From Planctomycetales bacterium (GTDB taxonomy: Bacteria > Planctomycetota > Planctomycetia > Planctomycetales > Planctomycetaceae): DNA of 46,071 nt. Of this stretch, positions 6,065 through 19,365 are shown piece after piece (position 1 is the first letter of the stretch; every line of letters starts with the position of its first letter). The notes beneath the pieces were generated by a model that saw only the letters and a list, made by a program, of their open reading frames with translations, had not been told where the DNA came from and did not search any database. The translations under genes and the position numbers were made by a program. The stretch lies in contig JAPLOA010000110.1 in assembly GCA_026400835.1 (NCBI GenBank), positions 1 through 46,071 of the forward strand, read 5' to 3'.

Positions 6065-6282
6065 GCAGAAACTTTCAGGGTAGTGTTTTCAAATCTTTCG
6101 CCTGCGTATCGTATGCGACGAATGTGCGAATCCTCCGGGTTTGCGGCCTGTTTACCACTGTTTTTAGGCTCTTTTGTTGCTCTTCCGAAGAATGCTCGTC
6201 TTGACCCGGGGAGCCTTTTTCCTGCATGATCAAACTTGGCCGGATCTGCGTCCCTGCTGAGTGTTCAGAAAGCCAATCCACC

Positions 6283-9200
6283 ATGAAGCCCAGACGACGA
6301 CGATCTCTGGCCAGAGCTCTACCCTGCTGGATTGCTTCAGCCAATGGGGCCTCTGCAGCCACGGAAACGCTCGAAGACCGATCGCTGCTTAGTAACCTGG
6401 CCATCGCTAACGCTTTTTTAGTCGATGGAAACAACAGCCGCATCAGCAACCCGTTGCTGGGTGAACAGGTGGAAATCCGCAGTCTTTACTCCACCAGCGG
6501 GCTTTCTGACTCGTCGTCCTATGCGATTCGGTTTATTGTCGATGGCATCGCGGTCGACAAAACCGACCTGACATTTGGCGCCGGGAGTGCCGTAGCGACC
6601 GAAAACTGGTTCGCCGACATGTTCCATGGTTATGCCGAAGCTGGCAGCCATTCTGTTCAGGTCATTCTGGATCCGTTCAATCAGGTCGCCGAAACCAACG
6701 AAGCTGATAACTCGCTGACATTCTCATACGCTCCCGTTCGAGCCACGAATCTGCCTCAGAGGCTGAGTCCCGTCGTTCAGGGAACTGCCGGTGTCGACTG
6801 GCGAGTGATGAACTTCGCTGATCTGGATCCCCGACCCGGCTTCCTGCGAGATCATCGCGGCGGCAAGTTTACTTACGATACTCCGACGTTTGGACACGAC
6901 GCACTCGACATCGGACTGGCCGATTTTTCTGCGGCTGATGAAGGGATGCCGGTTCTTGCCGCGGCCGATGGGATCGTAGAAGCCGTCAACGACGGAGCCT
7001 TTGACCGCAATAAGAGCTTTGCCTATCCAGAGCCACCCGCCAACTATGTCATCATCAATCTTGGTGACGGCTGGCGAGCCAAATACTGGCATCTGCGAAG
7101 AGATTCCGTTTCAGTGAAGGTCGGCGATTCCATTGCCGCCGGTGATTTTCTGGGCTGGACTGGCAGTTCAGGCTTTTCCACCGGACCCCATGTCCACTTT
7201 GAGCTGACTTACAAGAACCATCCGGTTGAAACGATGCTGGATCCTGCGACATTCTGGGTAACGCCGCCTCAATATCCGGCGGATTATCGCCACGTGATCA
7301 AATCGGGATTCTCCAGCGGTGTCCCGACCGCTTCCGAGTGGGCTGAACAACCTCAGGACATTCGCTCATTCAAGCCTGGCAACCGCCTTTCGTTCTGGGT
7401 GATTGCCGGAGCGATGATGCCGGGTGATACTCGTACCGTCCGCCTCCAGCGGGCCGATGGCAGTCTGTTTCTGGATCAAACGAGTAACCCGGGGAGTACT
7501 TTCTTTCAGGTTTCTCAATGGGCTTATACAGTCACTCTTCCCATGACCGACGTTCTGGGAACATGGACTGCGACATGGCTTCAGAATGGTATCGAGCTGA
7601 CTCGACAGACCTTCACGGTTTCGAACATCGGGGTTCCGGAACTCCGAGTTGAACTCAGCAGCGAACTCATCCCGTGCGGTCGATTTACGCCGATCGACTT
7701 CGGCAGTTCTGTGCCTGGCTCCGCCGGGCAGCTTCGAACTTTTGATATTCGCAACTTTGGCTCTGCGTTGCTTTCACTGAATTCAGTCACGGTACCGACC
7801 GGTTATGAAATCGTGAGTTATCCTGCGACTGTTCTGCAGCCCGGTCAGTCCACGACGTTGACGGTTCGCCTCTCAACCACGGCTCAAGGATACTTTGCTG
7901 GTGAATTGCGTTTAGCGACCAATGATCCTGATGAGTCGCTGTACCGTATCTGGCTGGAGGGAATAGTCGCACCAGCCGGCGTTGGCACATTGATTCCCGG
8001 GCTGTCGGTACGAAAAGCGGCCGAAGGATCGAAGTTCTTTGCGAATGTGCGTCGGACTGGAAATCTGACCTCGGCACTGACGGTTTCGCTGTTGGCTGAT
8101 AAGACGGAACTTATTGTACCGTCAACAGTTACGATCCCGACCGGAGCAACGTTCGTTAACTTTGAAGTCCAGGCCGTTCAGGATCTGACGACAGACGGTG
8201 AACAGCGAGTATCGTTGACGGCTTCTGCTGCCGGGCTGCGATCCGGAGAAAATGAAGTTCACATTCTGGATGCTGTTCCGGACATTCGAGTCCCCGCTTC
8301 ACCCAATATGATTGGTCCAACGAAAAGCGTTCTGAATAATCCTGTAACGGTCTCCTGGACGCCCGTTTCGAATGCCTCCAGCTACGATGTCCGTGTCGAT
8401 TTTCTGTCCGGAAAAAAGCCCAATTTGGTCCGATCAACGGTGACACTGACTTCTCTTTCACTCGGCGGATTTCGTGAACTGGGGCGTTATCGCGTCTTGG
8501 TGCGAGCGAACCTTAGCAGCGGTGGTTCGACCGCATTCAGCTCAGGTCATCTCATTCGAGTCGACAGTCCGATCGTGTTGAACCCGTTGGCTGAGGTTCA
8601 GCTGACTCCTCGTCCGGTGCTTTTCTGGAGCGAGGTACCGACGGCCGTTAGATACGAAGTCCAGATCGAGGACATCCTCCGGCTGAAATACTTCGTGGCC
8701 TCTTCCTACAGCAACAACTCAACCAGCCTGACATTTCCTAACCCTCTGCCGATGGGTATGTACGAAGTCAGAGTTCGCGCGATTGACGCCCTGAATGAGA
8801 AGACATCATGGTCACCAGCGGTTTCATTCACTGTGGTCCCTGTCCCGTCACCAAGCCTGACTCCGCTGTCGACTTTCTACAGGACTCCTGCCCTCAGATG
8901 GTCGCCAGTATCCGGTGCTCGAAGTTATGATGTTGTGCTTCGCGATCAGAAAACCGGTAAAACAATTTATCAGGCTTCTGAAGTGAGGTGGACTGTCTGG
9001 ACAACTCCGGCAAGTCTGCCCGTTGGAAATTACACTTGGCAGGTCCGTGCTTCTGCTGAGTATGACGTTCACAGTGCCTGGAGCACTGCTCGCAACCTAA
9101 CTATCGGTGGCCAGCCGCAAATGCTGACTCCCCTGAACACTGCTGGGGGACGTGTCACTTTTCGTTGGGATCCCGTGCAGTTCGCTGATCGTTATGAACT

Positions 9201-9381
9201 GCGAGTTGTCAGGGAATCGGCTTTGCAGACGGATGTCCTGCGCGTGAGCACAATCCAGGGAACTGCTAAAGAGTTCACTCGAACACTTCCTGTCGGAGCT
9301 TATCGTGTTTGGCTACGTGCTTTCAGCCGCTCTGGAGAAGCAAGTGCCTGGAGTTTCGCTGTTCGCTTTGGCGTAAGCTAA
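6283..9381 (+). CDS. Large exported protein with M23 peptidase and FN3-like repeats
   Basis: From the ATG at 6283 this is 1032 residues; an upstream in-frame ATG at 6226 would add 19. The basic N-terminus leads to LEDRSLLS (30-37), the planctomycete E-x-R-x-LL-S motif. A CARDB-like segment (about 39-150) follows, then an M23/LytM peptidase domain (about 200-310). Its zinc residues are visible: His205 and Asp209 in GHDALD, His270 in YWHL, and His303-Val-His305. An Ig-like segment of the ASH/DUF1573 type covers about 480-580. A Calx-beta-like part and at least three or four FN3-like repeats (PVSNASSYDVRV, PVSGARSYDVVL, PVQFADRYELRV) follow. M23 enzymes usually cut peptide crosslinks in peptidoglycan, so a cell-wall or surface role is likely. 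Its 3' end overlaps lpxK by 4 bp, head-on. Confidence 0.8.
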   Translation: MKPRRRRSLARALPCWIASANGASAATETLEDRSLLSNLAIANAFLVDGNNSRISNPLLGEQVEIRSLYSTSGLSDSSSYAIRFIVDGIAVDKTDLTFGAGSAVATENWFADMFHGYAEAGSHSVQVILDPFNQVAETNEADNSLTFSYAPVRATNLPQRLSPVVQGTAGVDWRVMNFADLDPRPGFLRDHRGGKFTYDTPTFGHDALDIGLADFSAADEGMPVLAAADGIVEAVNDGAFDRNKSFAYPEPPANYVIINLGDGWRAKYWHLRRDSVSVKVGDSIAAGDFLGWTGSSGFSTGPHVHFELTYKNHPVETMLDPATFWVTPPQYPADYRHVIKSGFSSGVPTASEWAEQPQDIRSFKPGNRLSFWVIAGAMMPGDTRTVRLQRADGSLFLDQTSNPGSTFFQVSQWAYTVTLPMTDVLGTWTATWLQNGIELTRQTFTVSNIGVPELRVELSSELIPCGRFTPIDFGSSVPGSAGQLRTFDIRNFGSALLSLNSVTVPTGYEIVSYPATVLQPGQSTTLTVRLSTTAQGYFAGELRLATNDPDESLYRIWLEGIVAPAGVGTLIPGLSVRKAAEGSKFFANVRRTGNLTSALTVSLLADKTELIVPSTVTIPTGATFVNFEVQAVQDLTTDGEQRVSLTASAAGLRSGENEVHILDAVPDIRVPASPNMIGPTKSVLNNPVTVSWTPVSNASSYDVRVDFLSGKKPNLVRSTVTLTSLSLGGFRELGRYRVLVRANLSSGGSTAFSSGHLIRVDSPIVLNPLAEVQLTPRPVLFWSEVPTAVRYEVQIEDILRLKYFVASSYSNNSTSLTFPNPLPMGMYEVRVRAIDALNEKTSWSPAVSFTVVPVPSPSLTPLSTFYRTPALRWSPVSGARSYDVVLRDQKTGKTIYQASEVRWTVWTTPASLPVGNYTWQVRASAEYDVHSAWSTARNLTIGGQPQMLTPLNTAGGRVTFRWDPVQFADRYELRVVRESALQTDVLRVSTIQGTAKEFTRTLPVGAYRVWLRAFSRSGEASAWSFAVRFGVS

Positions 9382-10439: not shown

Positions 10440-10744
10440 GCGGCGGAACTCGATATTTTGAGCGTTTCTGTTGGGCTATTTGTCGGGGAATGTTAGTGCT
10501 GGCGGTTTACTTGAGCCAGTATCCTGTCCGCTACATGACTCCTGCACTTTTCACGGCGCTGGTAGATTCTCTGTCATCTTTGGCCCATTCTGTCGGTTTC
10601 CGCCGGTTTTTCCCTGCTTTCACCCTGCCCTGGGCACCGATGCGATCTTGATCTTGCTGCTTTTTCCGGGTGAAAGTCGTTATCATCTGGACTACGATAA
10701 CCGGGCTGCTGATTTTATGCTCCCGTTATTCCGCTCGGATCTTC
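10440..10744. other. Intergenic region between divergent lpxK and ABC transporter genes
   Basis: About 305 bp between divergent starts, so promoters for both directions are expected here. I see no clear promoter pair, operator or hairpin. An in-frame extension of the ATPase gene reaches back to 10670, but that reading adds a hydrophobic stretch atypical of the family. Confidence 0.3.
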
Positions 10745-11563
10745 ATGCCGTCTCCTCCCTCAGCTTCCGAAAAACCATCCCCCGCATTTTCCCTGCGCGA
10801 TCTTGAGTTACGGTTTAACGGTGCGGAACGAGCGGTCTTCCAGAATCTCTGTTTGGATGTCGTTCAGGGAGAATTCCTGTCCATCGTCGGTCCTTCCGGT
10901 TGCGGCAAATCCACTCTGCTGAAGATGCTGGCGGGTTTGCTGATGCCAACCGGCGGAGAACTGAATCGGCACTCGACCTCCGCGGAGTCCTCACGCCGAA
11001 TCGGTTTTGTTTTTCAACACCCGACACTTCTCCCCTGGAGAACCGCGGCTGAGAATCTGAAGTTGCCGCTTGAACTCGGCCCAGACGCTGGCTCAAGACA
11101 ATTGTCGCAAACAGAGTGCGAAGATTTGCTGCTGCAAGTGGGACTGACTGCGGCCGATGCTGACAAACGACCGTCTGAGCTGTCTGGTGGCATGCAAATG
11201 CGATTATCTCTGGCCCGTGCTCTCGCGACTGGCCCGGATATTCTGCTTCTTGATGAACCTTTTGCCGCCGTTGATGACCTGCTGCGATTGCGACTTCAGG
11301 AAGATGTTCGAGGGCTGTACGAGAAAAAGAATCTGACCACGATCCTGGTGACTCATAATCTGCATGAGGCGGTTTTTATGAGCGATCGAGTCATCGTTCT
11401 TGGTGGTTCACCGTCACGCGTTGTCGACACCATCCCGATCTCCGGGCCAAGGTCACGTACGGCTGAATTTCGTCAGTCTTCAGCGTTTTTCGACGATCTG
11501 CGATTGGTCACCGCTGCTCTGTTCAGAACTCCACTCAGCGGAAAGGAGGTCGAACATGCGTGA
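10745..11563 (+). CDS. ABC transporter ATP-binding protein, nitrate/sulfonate/taurine (SsuB/TauB) type
   Basis: This 272-residue protein (from the ATG at 10745) powers import by a nitrate/sulfonate/taurine-type ABC transporter at the inner membrane. Walker A is GPSGCGKST (49-57). Then come the Q-loop VFQHPTLLPW, the signature LSGGMQMR, Walker B ILLLDEPF and the switch His in VTHNLHEA. LLPWRTA and DEPFAAVDDLLR are typical of the SsuB/TauB/NrtD group. The stop overlaps the permease start by 8 bp, indicating translational coupling. No periplasmic binding protein is found in the window, so the substrate cannot be assigned. Confidence 0.9.
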   Translation: MPSPPSASEKPSPAFSLRDLELRFNGAERAVFQNLCLDVVQGEFLSIVGPSGCGKSTLLKMLAGLLMPTGGELNRHSTSAESSRRIGFVFQHPTLLPWRTAAENLKLPLELGPDAGSRQLSQTECEDLLLQVGLTAADADKRPSELSGGMQMRLSLARALATGPDILLLDEPFAAVDDLLRLRLQEDVRGLYEKKNLTTILVTHNLHEAVFMSDRVIVLGGSPSRVVDTIPISGPRSRTAEFRQSSAFFDDLRLVTAALFRTPLSGKEVEHA

Positions 11564-12308
11564 AATTCTTGTTTTCGTTTTGCTTGTCATCGTCTGGCAA
11601 TTGACCGTCTGGCTGGGAAATATTCACCCGGTCCTTTTCCCGGGGCCCGCCGCTGTGGCGACGGCTGCGTGGAAACTTCGGATCGATTTGCTTGAAGCGA
11701 CTTTCCGAACAGCACTGGCTGCTTTTACGGGTTTGTCGATCAGTGTGATCGTGGGCACTCTGTCCGCATTTGTGTTTTCTCAGTCAACGATGATTCGACG
11801 TGCTCTGTATCCATATGCGGTGCTGCTACAAACGATCCCGATCATTGCGATTGCTCCTATCGTTATTGTCTCGTTCGGGCGAGGATTCTTCAGCATTGCC
11901 TTGGTATCGTCCGTGATCAGCCTCTTCCCGATCATCACGAATACCACGACCGGATTGCTCCAGATCGATCCGAACCTGTTGGATCTTTTCCGTCTGAACG
12001 GTGCTACGCGTTTGCAGACGTTGCTGAAGCTGCGAGTACCCTGTTCATTGCCGTTTCTTTTCTCTGGCATCCGCATCGCCAGCGGTTCCGCCATTGTTGG
12101 TGCGATTGTCGGGGAGTTCTTTGTTGGCTCCGGACAGCCGGGCCTTGGATCGATGATTCAGCGAAAATCTGCGTCGTTGGACATGGCTGAACTTTATGCC
12201 ACCGTATTGACCTCCACCGCGCTGGGTACCCTGGCTTTTGCGGCTGTTAGTCTTCTCGGTGAAACACTTCTGCGACGACGCTTTGGCATGAGTCTCGGCG
12301 GACGGTAG
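11556..12308 (+). CDS. ABC transporter permease, SsuC/TauC type
   Basis: This 250-residue inner-membrane protein has six hydrophobic segments and the cytoplasmic EAA-type loop around RLNGATRLQTLLKLRVP, which docks with the ATPase. It is the partner of the ATP-binding gene just upstream. A strong ribosome site (AAAGGAGG, 11540-11547) precedes the ATG at 11556 and decides this start over longer frames that open at 11400. No solute-binding gene follows; the next gene is on the opposite strand and unrelated. The transporter may use a binding protein encoded elsewhere. Confidence 0.88.
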   Translation: MREILVFVLLVIVWQLTVWLGNIHPVLFPGPAAVATAAWKLRIDLLEATFRTALAAFTGLSISVIVGTLSAFVFSQSTMIRRALYPYAVLLQTIPIIAIAPIVIVSFGRGFFSIALVSSVISLFPIITNTTTGLLQIDPNLLDLFRLNGATRLQTLLKLRVPCSLPFLFSGIRIASGSAIVGAIVGEFFVGSGQPGLGSMIQRKSASLDMAELYATVLTSTALGTLAFAAVSLLGETLLRRRFGMSLGGR

Positions 12309-12366: not shown

Positions 12367-13977
12367 CTACTTCTTGCGGAAAACATACAGCACCGGTGAT
12401 TCGTCGTTATCGACTGCTCCCGGAATCACCTCCGTGGAAAATGACGGTCCCTGATGACGCTGACTCCATTCTTCCACTGCCCTTGCCTCCTCCTGCCCTC
12501 CCAAATGTCCGCGATAGGCGACTACTGTCATCACCCCGCCTGATTTAAGCAGACTTACTCCTGCGGCGATCGCCTCCGTTGTTGTCGAAGCTGATGTGGT
12601 TCGCTGTTTATCTCCACCTGGAAGATAGCCAAGGTTAAACATGATCGCCCCAAAGACTTCCGAGGATTGCTGGAGCGACGTCAGCACCTTTCCGTGATCT
12701 CCCTGATGCAAGATCACGTTTGAGCAGGAAGCTATCTCCAATCGTGTTCGCGTTGACTGAATCGCTTCGGCCTGAATGTCGATCGCAAGAACTCGCCCCG
12801 TTGGCCCTGTGGAAGTCGACAGGAACACCGTGTCATGTCCATTCCCGGCCGTTGCATCAACTACTGTGTCGCCTAAACGCACCGCTCGTCGAACGATACT
12901 ATGGGCCAGTTTTGTCAGAGATACGGCCTTTGCACCCGTCGCCCGATTTTCCTGCCCCTTCGTTTCCGATTTCAATGCCATAAGTCTTAAAAGTTGCTGA
13001 ACCGTTGTCGGCGCCATCAAAGACGCTTTTGAACCCATACCATTCATAATCGCGACGTGCGGATATCTTGCATGACGAGCCGCTATCGGTCGTCGCGTTC
13101 TCATGCCGGCTCTGATCGCCGAATACTGCCCGATGACTCGATAGCTCTCGCTTGTCATCTCTTTCAGCCCTCGCAAAAGCGCGTCTCGGCCACTCTGTGT
13201 CTCATTCTGGTCGAGGTTTTCGCGGTCGTAGGTGGCTCCCAGAAGATATTCGTTTGCTGAGCTGTCCTCTCTCTGATCCGTCGCCGGAGCCAGCCATAAG
13301 CCCCGATGAACCACTTCACTCGTCGTCCGACCCGGGATGTCCAGCCTCAGGATCTCCCCACGGGCCGGTGCATCCGGGATCCCTGGAAACCATGGATTCT
13401 CTTCAGGTTGATATCCCTGACAAAAGAATAACTCTTCGCCCGTTAGTCCTTTTTTCCTGATCTGTACGCCATGCTCTGTGACCTCGATGTCATTGGCTAG
13501 ATCCAGATCCACCTCATGAAAACCACCTTTTGCTGTTAAGAAAGCTCGAGTCACCTCAAGGAACTCGGTCACTCGCAGTCGAGCAGCTCGCAGCATTCGA
13601 AATCCCTTCACCGCGCCGTTTTCATCGCTGATCAGTTCGATCTCACTGCGATGATTTTCATAGCGTTCGTTGAGAAAGAAGTCTCTCTCGATGTCATCCT
13701 GAAAGTACCGAACTGCCGGCTCTTCTTTGAACAGTGACGCTCCTGTTTCTCTCTCTACTCGGCTATAGAACTCTTTTGCCACCGTAAGGCTTTCGTCAAA
13801 GTCGCCCGCTTTCGACAATCTTCGACCTGTAAAAGGTGTGATCAAACCCGCTGCGATGCGAGATGCGGTGATTTTCCTGCCCCGATCAAGAACATGAACC
13901 GTCTTGTCTTCCCAACGAAGCGACCAGGCCAGTACCGAACCAGCGATGCCCTGCCCTATGATCAGGCTTGTTGTCAT
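12367..13977 (-). CDS. Fusion of FAD-dependent oxidase (DAO/MnmC(o)-like) and MnmM/YtqB-like methyltransferase
   Basis: This 536-residue protein joins two enzymes. Residues 1-335 form a DAO-fold flavoprotein, with the dinucleotide motif GQGIAG (8-13) and the late motif MRTRRPIAARH plus NGMGSKASLMAP (311-323). Residues 345-536 form a class I SAM methyltransferase of the YtqB family, with DATAGNGHD (374-382), FNLGYLPGGDK (447-457) and YRGHLGG (488-494). YtqB is now known as MnmM, which methylates nm5U34 to mnm5U34 in tRNA. A DAO-fold oxidase (MnmC(o) or MnmL) makes nm5U34 from cmnm5U34. The fusion could therefore do both steps, like E. coli MnmC but with an unrelated methyltransferase and reversed domain order. 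GGAG sits 8 bases before the ATG at 13977, which settles the start against a TTG at 13983. Function is inferred. Confidence 0.8.
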   Translation of the reverse strand: MTTSLIIGQGIAGSVLAWSLRWEDKTVHVLDRGRKITASRIAAGLITPFTGRRLSKAGDFDESLTVAKEFYSRVERETGASLFKEEPAVRYFQDDIERDFFLNERYENHRSEIELISDENGAVKGFRMLRAARLRVTEFLEVTRAFLTAKGGFHEVDLDLANDIEVTEHGVQIRKKGLTGEELFFCQGYQPEENPWFPGIPDAPARGEILRLDIPGRTTSEVVHRGLWLAPATDQREDSSANEYLLGATYDRENLDQNETQSGRDALLRGLKEMTSESYRVIGQYSAIRAGMRTRRPIAARHARYPHVAIMNGMGSKASLMAPTTVQQLLRLMALKSETKGQENRATGAKAVSLTKLAHSIVRRAVRLGDTVVDATAGNGHDTVFLSTSTGPTGRVLAIDIQAEAIQSTRTRLEIASCSNVILHQGDHGKVLTSLQQSSEVFGAIMFNLGYLPGGDKQRTTSASTTTEAIAAGVSLLKSGGVMTVVAYRGHLGGQEEARAVEEWSQRHQGPSFSTEVIPGAVDNDESPVLYVFRKK

Positions 13978-14150
13978 CTGCAAGGCTCCTCTGTTTCCGC
14001 TTTGAGTTCATTGATCACCCCTAATGATCTCACTGAGACTGAGTTTTCTTTCTGTTTCATTGTTTTTCCCTCGTGGTTCAGTCTATTCTGACACCGTGTT
14101 CCCGTGCTTTTCACACTCGCTTTTCGGCCTTCTGCCAAAGGTTCCCGCCT

Positions 14151-16985: not shown

Positions 16986-17208
16986 AGGAAGGCTCCCAAA
17001 GAAACAAAAGACCGGGCAACAAGTTCGGCGATCATAACGACCAAACGACCGATCCGCAGCCGAACAAAGGGCTACCTCAGCAATCGCAGTGCCGGAGAGA
17101 AAGTTGTCAGAACAGAGTCGCTAGTCGAAGGACGAAGACCCCTCAGAAACATACGATTTCTGATAACCGACAGGAGTGGCTCAACTCTCAGAAAGGATAA
17201 CGAGTCTG

Positions 17209-19365
17209 ATGCGAAAACTATTGTTCATGGGACTTCTATCCACCTTGCTCATTTCACCAGCAAAGGCCGACGAATGGCCAGCATTGCCTGACAAAGACGG
17301 AGCAGTCGAAATCCCAGCTCAGGAATGGTCACTTCGTCCGGGTCCTCGAAAGATTCGCATCCTGATTCACTTTCCGGACGGAACGAAGGAAAGTGTTCAA
17401 CAGGACACCGGACTGATGCTGACGCTGCACAACTGGGGGGGAACTGATTGTGTCGGCACCGCGTCTCCAGCGGTAGTGGCCCGAAAGCTGAATGTGGTTG
17501 CGATCTGCGTCAACTACTTGCAGAGCGGACAGGTAGATTCGATTCAGGGGCCGGAGCCCTATGATTTCGGATACCTGCAGGGACTTGATGCTTTGCGTGC
17601 CCTCTGGTTGGTCCGCAGCGGTTTGCAGGAGCAGAACATCGGCTACAACGATCGTCGCATCTATTCCACAGGAGGGTCCGGCGGCGGCAATGTGACGCTC
17701 ATGGCCAATAAACTCGCACCGCGAACCTTCGCGAGTGTTATTGACATGTGCGGCATGAAAAAGCTGTCCGATGATATCGCCTTTAATCTGCCGGGCGGAA
17801 GTGATCTGAATGCTCGCTGGAGTCAGGATAGCACAAACCCGTTTTACCTTTCGCTCGACGCACAGGAGCTCAGATTCGTTGGGAATCCGGATCATCTCCG
17901 TGAGATGAAACGGCTTGATACCGAGTCGCAGATCGTCGTCATCCACGGCGTGGATGATAAGACATGTCCTTTTTCGGATGCTCAGGAGATGGTGGCGTTG
18001 ATGCAGGCAGGAGGCCTGAAGGTCAAACCCATCTTCGTTGATCAGCCGATAATTGATGGCGAGACCTACAAATCAACGGGACATTCATTGGGCGATCGAA
18101 CACGAATTGTTCTGGAACAAGCGGGTGTTGTGAACGATCTGTCGACACTCAGCGATGTGTCACTTCCCCTTCGAAGTCAGGAACAAACCGACTTCGATCA
18201 CAAAGACGTGATTCGCTATCGAACATCCTCCGGAGCATTCCTGATAGACTACCGTCAGGGTTTTCCGGTCGGCCATTTTGAAGCAGAGACTTCTCTTCCG
18301 GAATATCCGGATCATCAGGATCTGACATACCGAATTGATTCAACTGGTCAACGGGCTGAAGTTAAACACGCTGCCGACTGGGAGCATCGCCGCGATCACA
18401 TACGCAGACATCTGGAACGGATCACCGGAAAGTATCCTTCGCCGCTCAAACGAGTTCCGCTGAATCCGATGATCTCTGAAGAAGTCACACTCAATCCTCC
18501 AGAGGTGAGTCGCCCACTACTGAGGCGAAAGCTGACGTATCAGCCGGACGCTGAGAGTCGCGTACCAGCCTATGTCTTCATTCCGCTCCCCGTAGGCTCA
18601 GAGGGCGAAAAAGACCGCGAAAAGAATCCAGCGACCACAAGAATCCCTTATCCCGCTGTGTTGTGTCTGCAACAAACAACATCGGCAGGAAAAGATGAGC
18701 CAGCCGGTCTGCAGGGCGACCCGGACATGAAATATGCGATTGAGCTGGCTGAGGCGGGATTCGTCACGATCGCGCCCGACTATCCTTCATTCGGCGAATA
18801 CACGCATGATTTTGATGCCGATCAGTACCAAAGCGGCACGATGAAAGCGATCTGGGATAATTCCCGAGCCATCGATCTGCTCGAAACGATGTCCGAAGTG
18901 GACCGCACCAGAATCGGCTGCATCGGTCATTCTTTGGGCGGCCACAATGCCATTTTCACGGCGATGTTTGAGCCGAGAATTCAGGCGATCGTGTCCAGTT
19001 GCGGATTCACGAGTCTCTCAGAGGACGACCTTCCCAGTTGGACGGGTCCTCGCTACATGCCTTTGATCGCGACCTCGTTTGAAAATGACATCCGGAAAAT
19101 GCCGGTCGACTTTCATGAGTTGATCGCGGCTCTCGCCCCGCGGCCGTTTCTCGCCTGCTACGCAGAAAAGGATGATGATTTTTCAGCGTCCGGTGTTCGC
19201 CATGTGGTGCAACAGGCCGAGCCGGTCTACAAGCTCTACAATAGCGAGACGCTCTTGCAATCCTTCGGAATTGAAGCGGGCCACTCATTTCCCAAAGTGT
19301 CGCGAGAGCGAGCTTATCAATTTCTCGCCGAACACTTACAGCACCAACCGAGACCGAGCAAATGA
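17209..19365 (+). CDS. Secreted tandem alpha/beta-hydrolase protein (DUF2920-like plus dienelactone-hydrolase-like)
   Basis: This 718-residue protein has a signal peptide (MRKLLFMGLLSTLLISPAKA). It carries two alpha/beta-hydrolase domains. The first resembles DUF2920: its nucleophile elbow is GGSGGGN and possible acid and base residues lie in HGVDDKTCPF and STGHSLGD. The second resembles dienelactone hydrolases and acetyl xylan esterases: elbow GHSLGG, acid in AEKDDDFS, and His in EAGHSFP. Ester hydrolysis of an extracellular compound is likely; the substrate is unknown. The ATG at 17209 is preferred over an in-frame GTG at 17176 because the signal peptide starts there. The stop overlaps the start of the pterin dehydratase gene by 4 bp. 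Confidence 0.8.
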   Translation: MRKLLFMGLLSTLLISPAKADEWPALPDKDGAVEIPAQEWSLRPGPRKIRILIHFPDGTKESVQQDTGLMLTLHNWGGTDCVGTASPAVVARKLNVVAICVNYLQSGQVDSIQGPEPYDFGYLQGLDALRALWLVRSGLQEQNIGYNDRRIYSTGGSGGGNVTLMANKLAPRTFASVIDMCGMKKLSDDIAFNLPGGSDLNARWSQDSTNPFYLSLDAQELRFVGNPDHLREMKRLDTESQIVVIHGVDDKTCPFSDAQEMVALMQAGGLKVKPIFVDQPIIDGETYKSTGHSLGDRTRIVLEQAGVVNDLSTLSDVSLPLRSQEQTDFDHKDVIRYRTSSGAFLIDYRQGFPVGHFEAETSLPEYPDHQDLTYRIDSTGQRAEVKHAADWEHRRDHIRRHLERITGKYPSPLKRVPLNPMISEEVTLNPPEVSRPLLRRKLTYQPDAESRVPAYVFIPLPVGSEGEKDREKNPATTRIPYPAVLCLQQTTSAGKDEPAGLQGDPDMKYAIELAEAGFVTIAPDYPSFGEYTHDFDADQYQSGTMKAIWDNSRAIDLLETMSEVDRTRIGCIGHSLGGHNAIFTAMFEPRIQAIVSSCGFTSLSEDDLPSWTGPRYMPLIATSFENDIRKMPVDFHELIAALAPRPFLACYAEKDDDFSASGVRHVVQQAEPVYKLYNSETLLQSFGIEAGHSFPKVSRERAYQFLAEHLQHQPRPSK

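Follow-up and report, generated by a model that had tools for sequence, protein, structure and literature searches.

A planctomycete fusion of a DAO-fold flavin oxidase and the tRNA methylase MnmM as a putative MnmC counterpart assembled from different parts

Background

A gene on the minus strand of contig JAPLOA010000110.1 from a Planctomycetales bacterium (assembly GCA_026400835.1, a genome of 7.58 Mb labelled G000 here) encodes, in one reading frame, a flavin adenine dinucleotide (FAD) oxidase of the DAO fold followed by a methyltransferase of the MnmM family. The question raised by this locus is whether the two halves carry out, on the wobble uridine (U34) of tRNA, the two successive steps that E. 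coli entrusts to MnmC. The stretch of 46,071 nucleotides is called the window. E. coli MnmC likewise joins a DAO-fold FAD oxidase, MnmC(o), and an S-adenosylmethionine (SAM) methylase, MnmC(m), in a single chain; in the planctomycete protein, by contrast, the methylase is MnmM and the oxidase comes first, in reversed order. We propose with high confidence, from sequence comparison, that the fused protein acts on the tRNA wobble uridine with two activities, as a functional counterpart of MnmC assembled from different parts.

According to PMC9976899, the oxidase acting before MnmM, an MnmC(o)-like enzyme, was unknown; Bacteroides and alpha-Proteobacteria lack mnmC(o), and organisms with an orphan mnmC(m), these two groups among them, are likely to possess an MnmC(o)-like enzyme yet to be identified. 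The stand-alone methylase of the MnmC(m) type, found in Bacteroidota and others, is called MnmD. For Gram-positive bacteria MnmL has reportedly been proposed since, and the Bacillus partner of MnmM, which stands alone in B. subtilis (as YtqB), is this MnmL, a radical-SAM protein and not a flavin oxidase. MnmL also appears in a table of PMC12548931. Among the matches listed in literature searches on MnmM, MnmC, MnmL, YtqB and planctomycete MnmC, none describes the fusion or the oxidase. The abstract of the MnmL paper (Jaroch et al.) reportedly mentions fusion proteins, so that part of what follows may already be in print and priority is uncertain.

The two halves of the fused protein

A first-pass annotation, made from the sequence alone, had read the protein as a DAO-fold flavoprotein joined to a YtqB/MnmM-like methyltransferase, with the domain order of E. 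coli MnmC reversed, and profile searches bear this out, the oxidase being N-terminal and MnmM C-terminal. By profile score and residues the C-terminal half is a member of the MnmM family: it reaches 169.4 bits on the NCBIfam equivalog NF053511 (cut-off 135) over residues 356-537, counted like all residues here from a TTG start, and both motifs named for this half in that annotation, DATAGNGHD and FNLGYLPGGDK, are present. Of seven mapped MnmM residues six are kept (D384, N450, Y453, K459, Y490 and H493); their equivalents D34, N101, Y104, K110, Y141 and H144 are given as catalytic or tRNA-contact residues, and K11 as a contact to U33, in PMC9976899.

The N-terminal half matches Pfam DAO at 57.5 bits (residues 7-326) and carries the FAD-binding motif GQGIAG; together with its relatives it is referred to below as DAOx. 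At the position of Arg291 an Arg stands in all 34 DAOx, five MnmC(o) and five ThiO rows of the alignment, and the corresponding Arg of glycine oxidase is presumably the one that holds the substrate carboxylate. A GS(R/K) motif is common to the window protein (GSKA) and MnmC, whereas the ThiO rows read F-R-x-G at this position; the five MnmC rows differ from the window protein by an insert of about 26 columns ahead of GSRG. PMC3648344 lists G271, G273, G287, G518, R567, G578, G619 (FAD binding) and R653 as conserved in the MnmC(o) half, and four of these eight mapped residues, namely G271, G273, G518 and R567, are kept in the window protein. In a fold comparison, the first twelve rows among the matches listed are glycine oxidases, CmiS2, MnmC and iminodiacetate oxidase. 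The substrates of these enzymes are glycine or N-substituted glycines.

Co-occurrence of the oxidase with MnmM and MnmD

Profile searches covered 170 genomes from the family to which the window belongs, with DAOx accepted to E 3e-40 (next match 7e-11) and MnmM accepted over its cut-off. Co-occurrence was near-perfect: DAOx was found in 103 genomes and MnmM in 101, both genes together in 101, DAOx only in two, MnmM only in none and neither gene in 67 (Fisher p 1e-45, a value that overstates independence because the genomes are related). Three near-complete genomes (G273, G183 and G154, 96-99%) have neither gene, whereas most of their same-genus sisters have both. The survey of the fusion in planctomycetes that the first-pass annotation had called for gave 54 of 104 DAOx genes (53 genomes) in one frame with MnmM, and a further 38 directly upstream of it on the same strand, with gaps of -9 to 156 bases between matches; the two genes of the adjacent pairs L003, L004 and L006 share 4 to 13 bases. 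Of the remaining 12 DAOx genes, some stand apart from MnmM, some lie at a contig edge and some have no MnmM. A DAOx search of a plasmid collection gave zero matches.

The known alternatives are missing from these genomes. For ALTERNATIVES in the family, MnmL (TIGR01212, which we take to be the MnmL family of radical-SAM proteins) was over cut-off in none of the 170 genomes, the best score in G000 being 46.7 bits (cut-off 180); this absence is expected if the DAO enzyme replaces MnmL. As a radical-SAM protein, MnmL is no homologue of the DAO oxidase. The MnmC(m)/MnmD family PF05430 gave matches in eight of 170 genomes, nominally over the Pfam 22-bit cut-off, all partial and of 21.6-26.9 bits; seven of them sit in unfetched frames of at least 500 residues, and the eighth (G187, a 299-residue frame) was rejected as MnmC or MnmD, being spermidine-synthase-like. 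PF05430 is absent among the Pfam matches of the fused protein and has zero matches in the whole of G000, which thus holds no complete mnmC, a stand-alone MnmC(o) (TIGR03197) not having been searched genome by genome. MnmG was detected at E 1e-100 or better in 156 of the 170 genomes, G000 among them; the 14 in which it was missed are for the most part in fragments or incomplete. The expectation that such genomes lack mnmC and keep mnmE and mnmG is borne out for mnmC, apart from the marginal matches, and for MnmG, the one of the two MnmE/MnmG proteins that the search covered.

Among 149 genomes of the phylum set MnmM was over cut-off in nine, five of which belong to the window's family and all have DAOx. 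Two others (G017 and G058) have MnmM with MnmL over cut-off (277 and 306 bits) and no DAOx, so that the two oxidase types replace each other there.

Across phyla, the best 80 loci of a DAOx profile scan of genome contigs were taken, a sample and not a census; this named set partly overlaps the family set (same contig coordinates in G178/L113, G286/L111 and G300/L151; Gimesia, Schlesneria and Thalassoglobus records). At 41 of the 80 loci the stretch fetched also contains MnmM, fused in six and downstream in 35 (372 bases off at L163, 1.8 kb off at L170, and a partial match at L125), and the titles of these 41 are planctomycete, Verrucomicrobia/Akkermansiaceae, Hyphomicrobiales and other Alphaproteobacteria, and Methylobacter/Methylococcaceae. 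Whole genomes were searched for methylases in 50 of the 80, made up of every one of the 39 whose stretch lacks MnmM and 11 whose stretch has it. Of these 50, 23 carry MnmM (12 of the 39 plus the 11; 22 over cut-off, and G316 in two fragments) and 15, all among the 39, carry a strong MnmD (E 4e-18 or better), with 14 Bacteroidota-type titles and one UBP8; the nine MnmD proteins scanned score 186-213 bits on the MnmC2 equivalog, and all pass its cut-off of 136. Among the 21 Bacteroidota-titled genomes, 14 have MnmD, two MnmM and five neither.

DAOx is thus present in genomes with MnmD (15 of the 50 tested) as it is beside MnmM, and no genome among the 50 searched has MnmM and a strong MnmD together, nor is there a convincing genome with both in the set. 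Five MnmM genomes have marginal PF05430 matches (21.6-23.5 bits), three of them in long, unfetched frames; the short-frame matches of G356 and G357 were rejected as MnmD (MnmC2 equivalog 19 bits or none against 136). Over both sets, ten marginal matches lie in unfetched frames of at least 500 residues (seven in the family set, three in the named set), and the three in short frames (G187, G356 and G357) are spermidine-synthase-like or unassigned (MnmC2 equivalog 19-21 bits or none). Mutually exclusive methylases beside a constant oxidase are what a swap of partners predicts, with the reservation that absence is weak evidence because the genomes are mostly drafts.

At four loci from planctomycetes of Isosphaera, Singulisphaera and Gemmata type (L118, L119, L121 and L146), DAOx was accompanied by neither MnmM nor MnmD in the genome search. 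An adjacent third methylase was looked for by eye in the open reading frame (ORF) lists of the DAOx-only loci L118, L119, L121, L134, L138, L146, L158, L160 and L179, without a Pfam scan of those ORFs, and none was recognised. A 783-aa frame at L146 was considered as a further DAOx fusion and rejected, its first ~430 residues being read as a spurious high-GC frame.

Phylogeny of the oxidase and history of the fusion

The main tree contained 52 sequences: 34 DAOx, five MnmC(o), seven labelled ThiO (three profile-confirmed) and six other DAO enzymes. DAOx forms one clade with support of 100/100, and DAOx and MnmC(o) group together against all others at 94/84, just short of the firm threshold. 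Constraining MnmC(o) with ThiO cost 18.4 log units (p-AU 0.057). One of the seven ThiO-labelled sequences, a Vibrio plasmid protein whose label is unconfirmed, was placed among the other DAO enzymes, and in a smaller tree DAOx, MnmC(o) and ThiO likewise stand apart. From these trees DAOx is probably the sister lineage of MnmC(o).

Had the FAD half fallen among amino-acid oxidases unrelated to tRNA, the first-pass reading would have suffered; instead it groups with MnmC(o), at the support just given. The term "convergent MnmC" used there fits the methylase partner and the fusion, which are independent of E. coli MnmC, and probably does not fit the oxidase, which looks like a sister of MnmC(o).

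The fusion has counterparts elsewhere and does not go back to one event. A quick tree was made of 115 DAOx sequences, of which 21 are fused, 54 adjacent and 40 other; it requires at least eight changes between the fused and the separate state, four of them forced by well-supported branches, so that fusion and fission happened repeatedly, as expected of two products acting in sequence. The independent origin that had been claimed for the bifunctional enzyme holds for the fusion, in this plural form.

The gene, its integrity and its neighbourhood

The features of the gene are collected in Table 1. The mechanical ORF begins at TTG; an alternative ATG at 13977, two codons in, is preceded by AGAGGAG and is on that account the likelier start, giving a coding sequence at 12367-13977 of 536 aa. 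The coordinates first assigned to the gene are those of this ATG-start coding sequence and are correct; its strand had been left unsaid, and the plus strand at 12367-13977 is crowded with stops.

Table 1. Position of the fused gene, its domains and its motifs in the window
Feature	Position	Strand	Remarks
Whole fused gene, DAO oxidase-MnmM	12367..13983	minus	mechanical ORF, TTG, 538 aa
N-terminal DAO-fold FAD oxidase domain (DAOx), residues 1-338	12970..13983	minus	
FAD-binding GQGIAG, residues 10-15	13939..13956	minus	G10, Q11, G12 and G15 invariant in 35-row alignment A3
Arg291	13111..13113	minus	aligned with E. coli MnmC Arg567 and the glycine oxidase Arg
GSKA, residues 317-320	13024..13035	minus	equivalent of MnmC GSRG (616-619 in E. 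coli), by alignment
Interdomain linker, residues 339-355	12919..12969	minus	AF2 model of low confidence at 340-352; dN < dS
C-terminal MnmM methyltransferase domain, residues 356-537	12373..12918	minus	
SAM motif DATAGNGHD, residues 376-384	12832..12858	minus	D384 = MnmM D34
FNLGYLPGGDK, residues 449-459	12607..12639	minus	N450, Y453, K459 = MnmM N101, Y104, K110
YRGH, residues 490-493	12505..12516	minus	Y490, H493 = MnmM Y141, H144

Two genomes of the same genus (G276 and G275) have the same unbroken fused frame of 537-539 codons. In comparisons with same-genus genomes (Nei-Gojobori), nonsynonymous divergence (dN) is 0.11-0.14 and synonymous divergence (dS) 0.58-0.84 in both domains, a dN/dS of about 0.15-0.19, and the linker, with few sites, gives dN 0.07-0.12 and dS 0.42-0.56. 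Because the frames are unbroken within the genus, dN is well below dS in the halves and the linker alike, and 54 of 104 DAOx genes are fused, the fusion is no assembly artefact. A further genome of the genus (G271) has two fused copies (C209, 54020-55621, and C169, 6474-8081), which may reflect a duplication or, the genome being a draft, a mixture of strains.

The nearest neighbours of the fused gene encode LpxK, an ABC transporter ATPase and permease (10670-12308, plus strand) and a Gfo/Idh oxidoreductase; they give no functional hint, and no thiamin genes are among them. Elsewhere in the window, the plus strand encodes a 1051-aa protein with CARDB, M23 peptidase and DUF1573 domains (6226-9381), and a 729-aa protein with two alpha/beta-hydrolase-like regions (17176-19365; DUF2920 at residues 212-312 and Peptidase_S9 at 524-718).

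Discussion

By its score and its lack of MnmC(m) the fused protein is not a member of the MnmC family, and yet it very probably works like MnmC, performing the same two U34 steps. We infer the substrate and product of the oxidase, and the order of reactions, as follows. MnmE and MnmG would make 5-carboxymethylaminomethyl-(2-thio)uridine, cmnm5(s2)U34, which is an N-substituted glycine; DAOx with FAD would oxidise its glycine C-N bond, and hydrolysis would free glyoxylate and leave the 5-aminomethyl form, nm5(s2)U34; MnmM with SAM would then methylate the amine to give the 5-methylaminomethyl form, mnm5(s2)U34. PMC3648344 describes the same chemistry for MnmC(o), together with its structural kinship to glycine oxidase, and places the active sites of the two halves of E. 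coli MnmC 45 Angstrom apart, a distance at which physical channelling is not required.

Several observations weigh against this proposal. While the MnmM half passed its profile check, the oxidase half failed that for MnmC(o): it scores 31 bits on TIGR03197 (cut-off 174), where six DAOx relatives reach 54-92 bits, and the higher 55.4 bits on the ThiO profile TIGR02352 (cut-off 250.8), and in the fold comparison glycine oxidases stand slightly above MnmC. Four of the eight listed MnmC(o) residues are changed (G287 to Asp, G578 and G619 to Ala, and R653 without a counterpart); the three glycine positions are Gly in most DAOx relatives. Grouping DAOx with ThiO costs 17.8 log units and stands unrejected (p-AU 0.070). 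In the methylase half K11 of B. subtilis MnmM is replaced by His361, the sole change among the seven mapped residues, which we take as within-family variation because the aligned proteins of C. thermocellum (3eey) and S. mutans (3lby) also have His there. As to distribution, the two family genomes with DAOx and no MnmM (G168 and G291) are incomplete or fragmented; G071 and G107 of another planctomycete family (L008, L010 and L220) are real exceptions that have MnmM and neither DAOx nor MnmL over cut-off, and may therefore depend on a third oxidase or obtain nm5U from a third source. The best DAO match of G071 (77.6 bits), a DAOx candidate, proved ThiO-like once fetched. Twelve of the 50 DAOx genomes have neither MnmM nor MnmD (four planctomycete, five Bacteroidota and three others), two Bacteroidota-titled genomes (L124 and L187) have MnmM in place of MnmD, and of MnmE, MnmG and MnmA the genome search covered MnmG only.

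The ThiO score of 55 bits, the best of the DAO half on any equivalog, and the glycine oxidases at the top of the fold matches would suit a ThiO-like glycine oxidase, or another small-amine oxidase, fused to MnmM for some other purpose such as metabolite supply. ThiO does share with DAOx the fold, the conserved Arg and, as expected, an analogous oxidation of the glycine C-N bond. We regard this explanation as improbable, since the score is far under the 251-bit cut-off and a genuine ThiO is encoded elsewhere in the genome (L201, 275 bits; the DAO profile has three matches in G000, including the fusion and a ThiO on C34), so that the DAO half is dispensable for thiamin. ThiO was also placed, not firmly, with other DAO enzymes away from the DAOx clade, all 101 family genomes with MnmM have DAOx, and an oxidase of free metabolites would leave the exchange of MnmM for MnmD unexplained.

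A tRNA-directed oxidase of cmnm5U explains these facts better in our judgement than a scheme in which MnmM acts as in Bacillus on nm5U from another route, either the ammonium-dependent MnmEG reaction described in PMC9976899 or some oxidase that escaped detection, while the DAO half adds or removes a modification at another base or group of the same tRNA. The MnmM genes of G071 and G107 speak for such a route; against it, the fold matches of the DAO half oxidise glycine or N-substituted glycines, the type to which cmnm5U belongs. We know of no U34 pathway that requires a second flavin amine oxidase, and we give this scheme a slightly smaller chance than the ThiO-like one. Least credible of all is loss of one activity, with the DAO or the MnmM half kept as a remnant or structural domain: Ala320 and Ala302 do stand where 31 and 30 of 34 DAOx rows, respectively, and all five MnmC rows have Gly, yet both domains evolve under the low dN/dS given above, and the FAD motif, Arg291 and six MnmM residues are intact.

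Conclusions

Most likely, DAOx pairs with MnmM, fused or as a neighbour, in Planctomycetota, Verrucomicrobiota, Hyphomicrobiales and Methylococcales, pairs mostly with MnmD in Bacteroidota, and is the sister of MnmC(o). It is the best candidate on present sequence data for the MnmC(o)-like enzyme of organisms with MnmM. We consider it probable, with less assurance than for the fused protein itself, that DAOx is a general, partner-swapping cmnm5U oxidase of at least four phyla that works with MnmM or, in most Bacteroidota, with MnmD, and that was repeatedly fused to MnmM as a new bifunctional MnmC with a non-homologous methylase. Fusion and co-occurrence would thus name one gene family for the oxidase step in many groups outside the Gram-positive bacteria, a proposal testable by a single complementation, and the two-step tRNA pathway would have come together on more than one occasion, from an oxidase and methylases that can stand in for one another.
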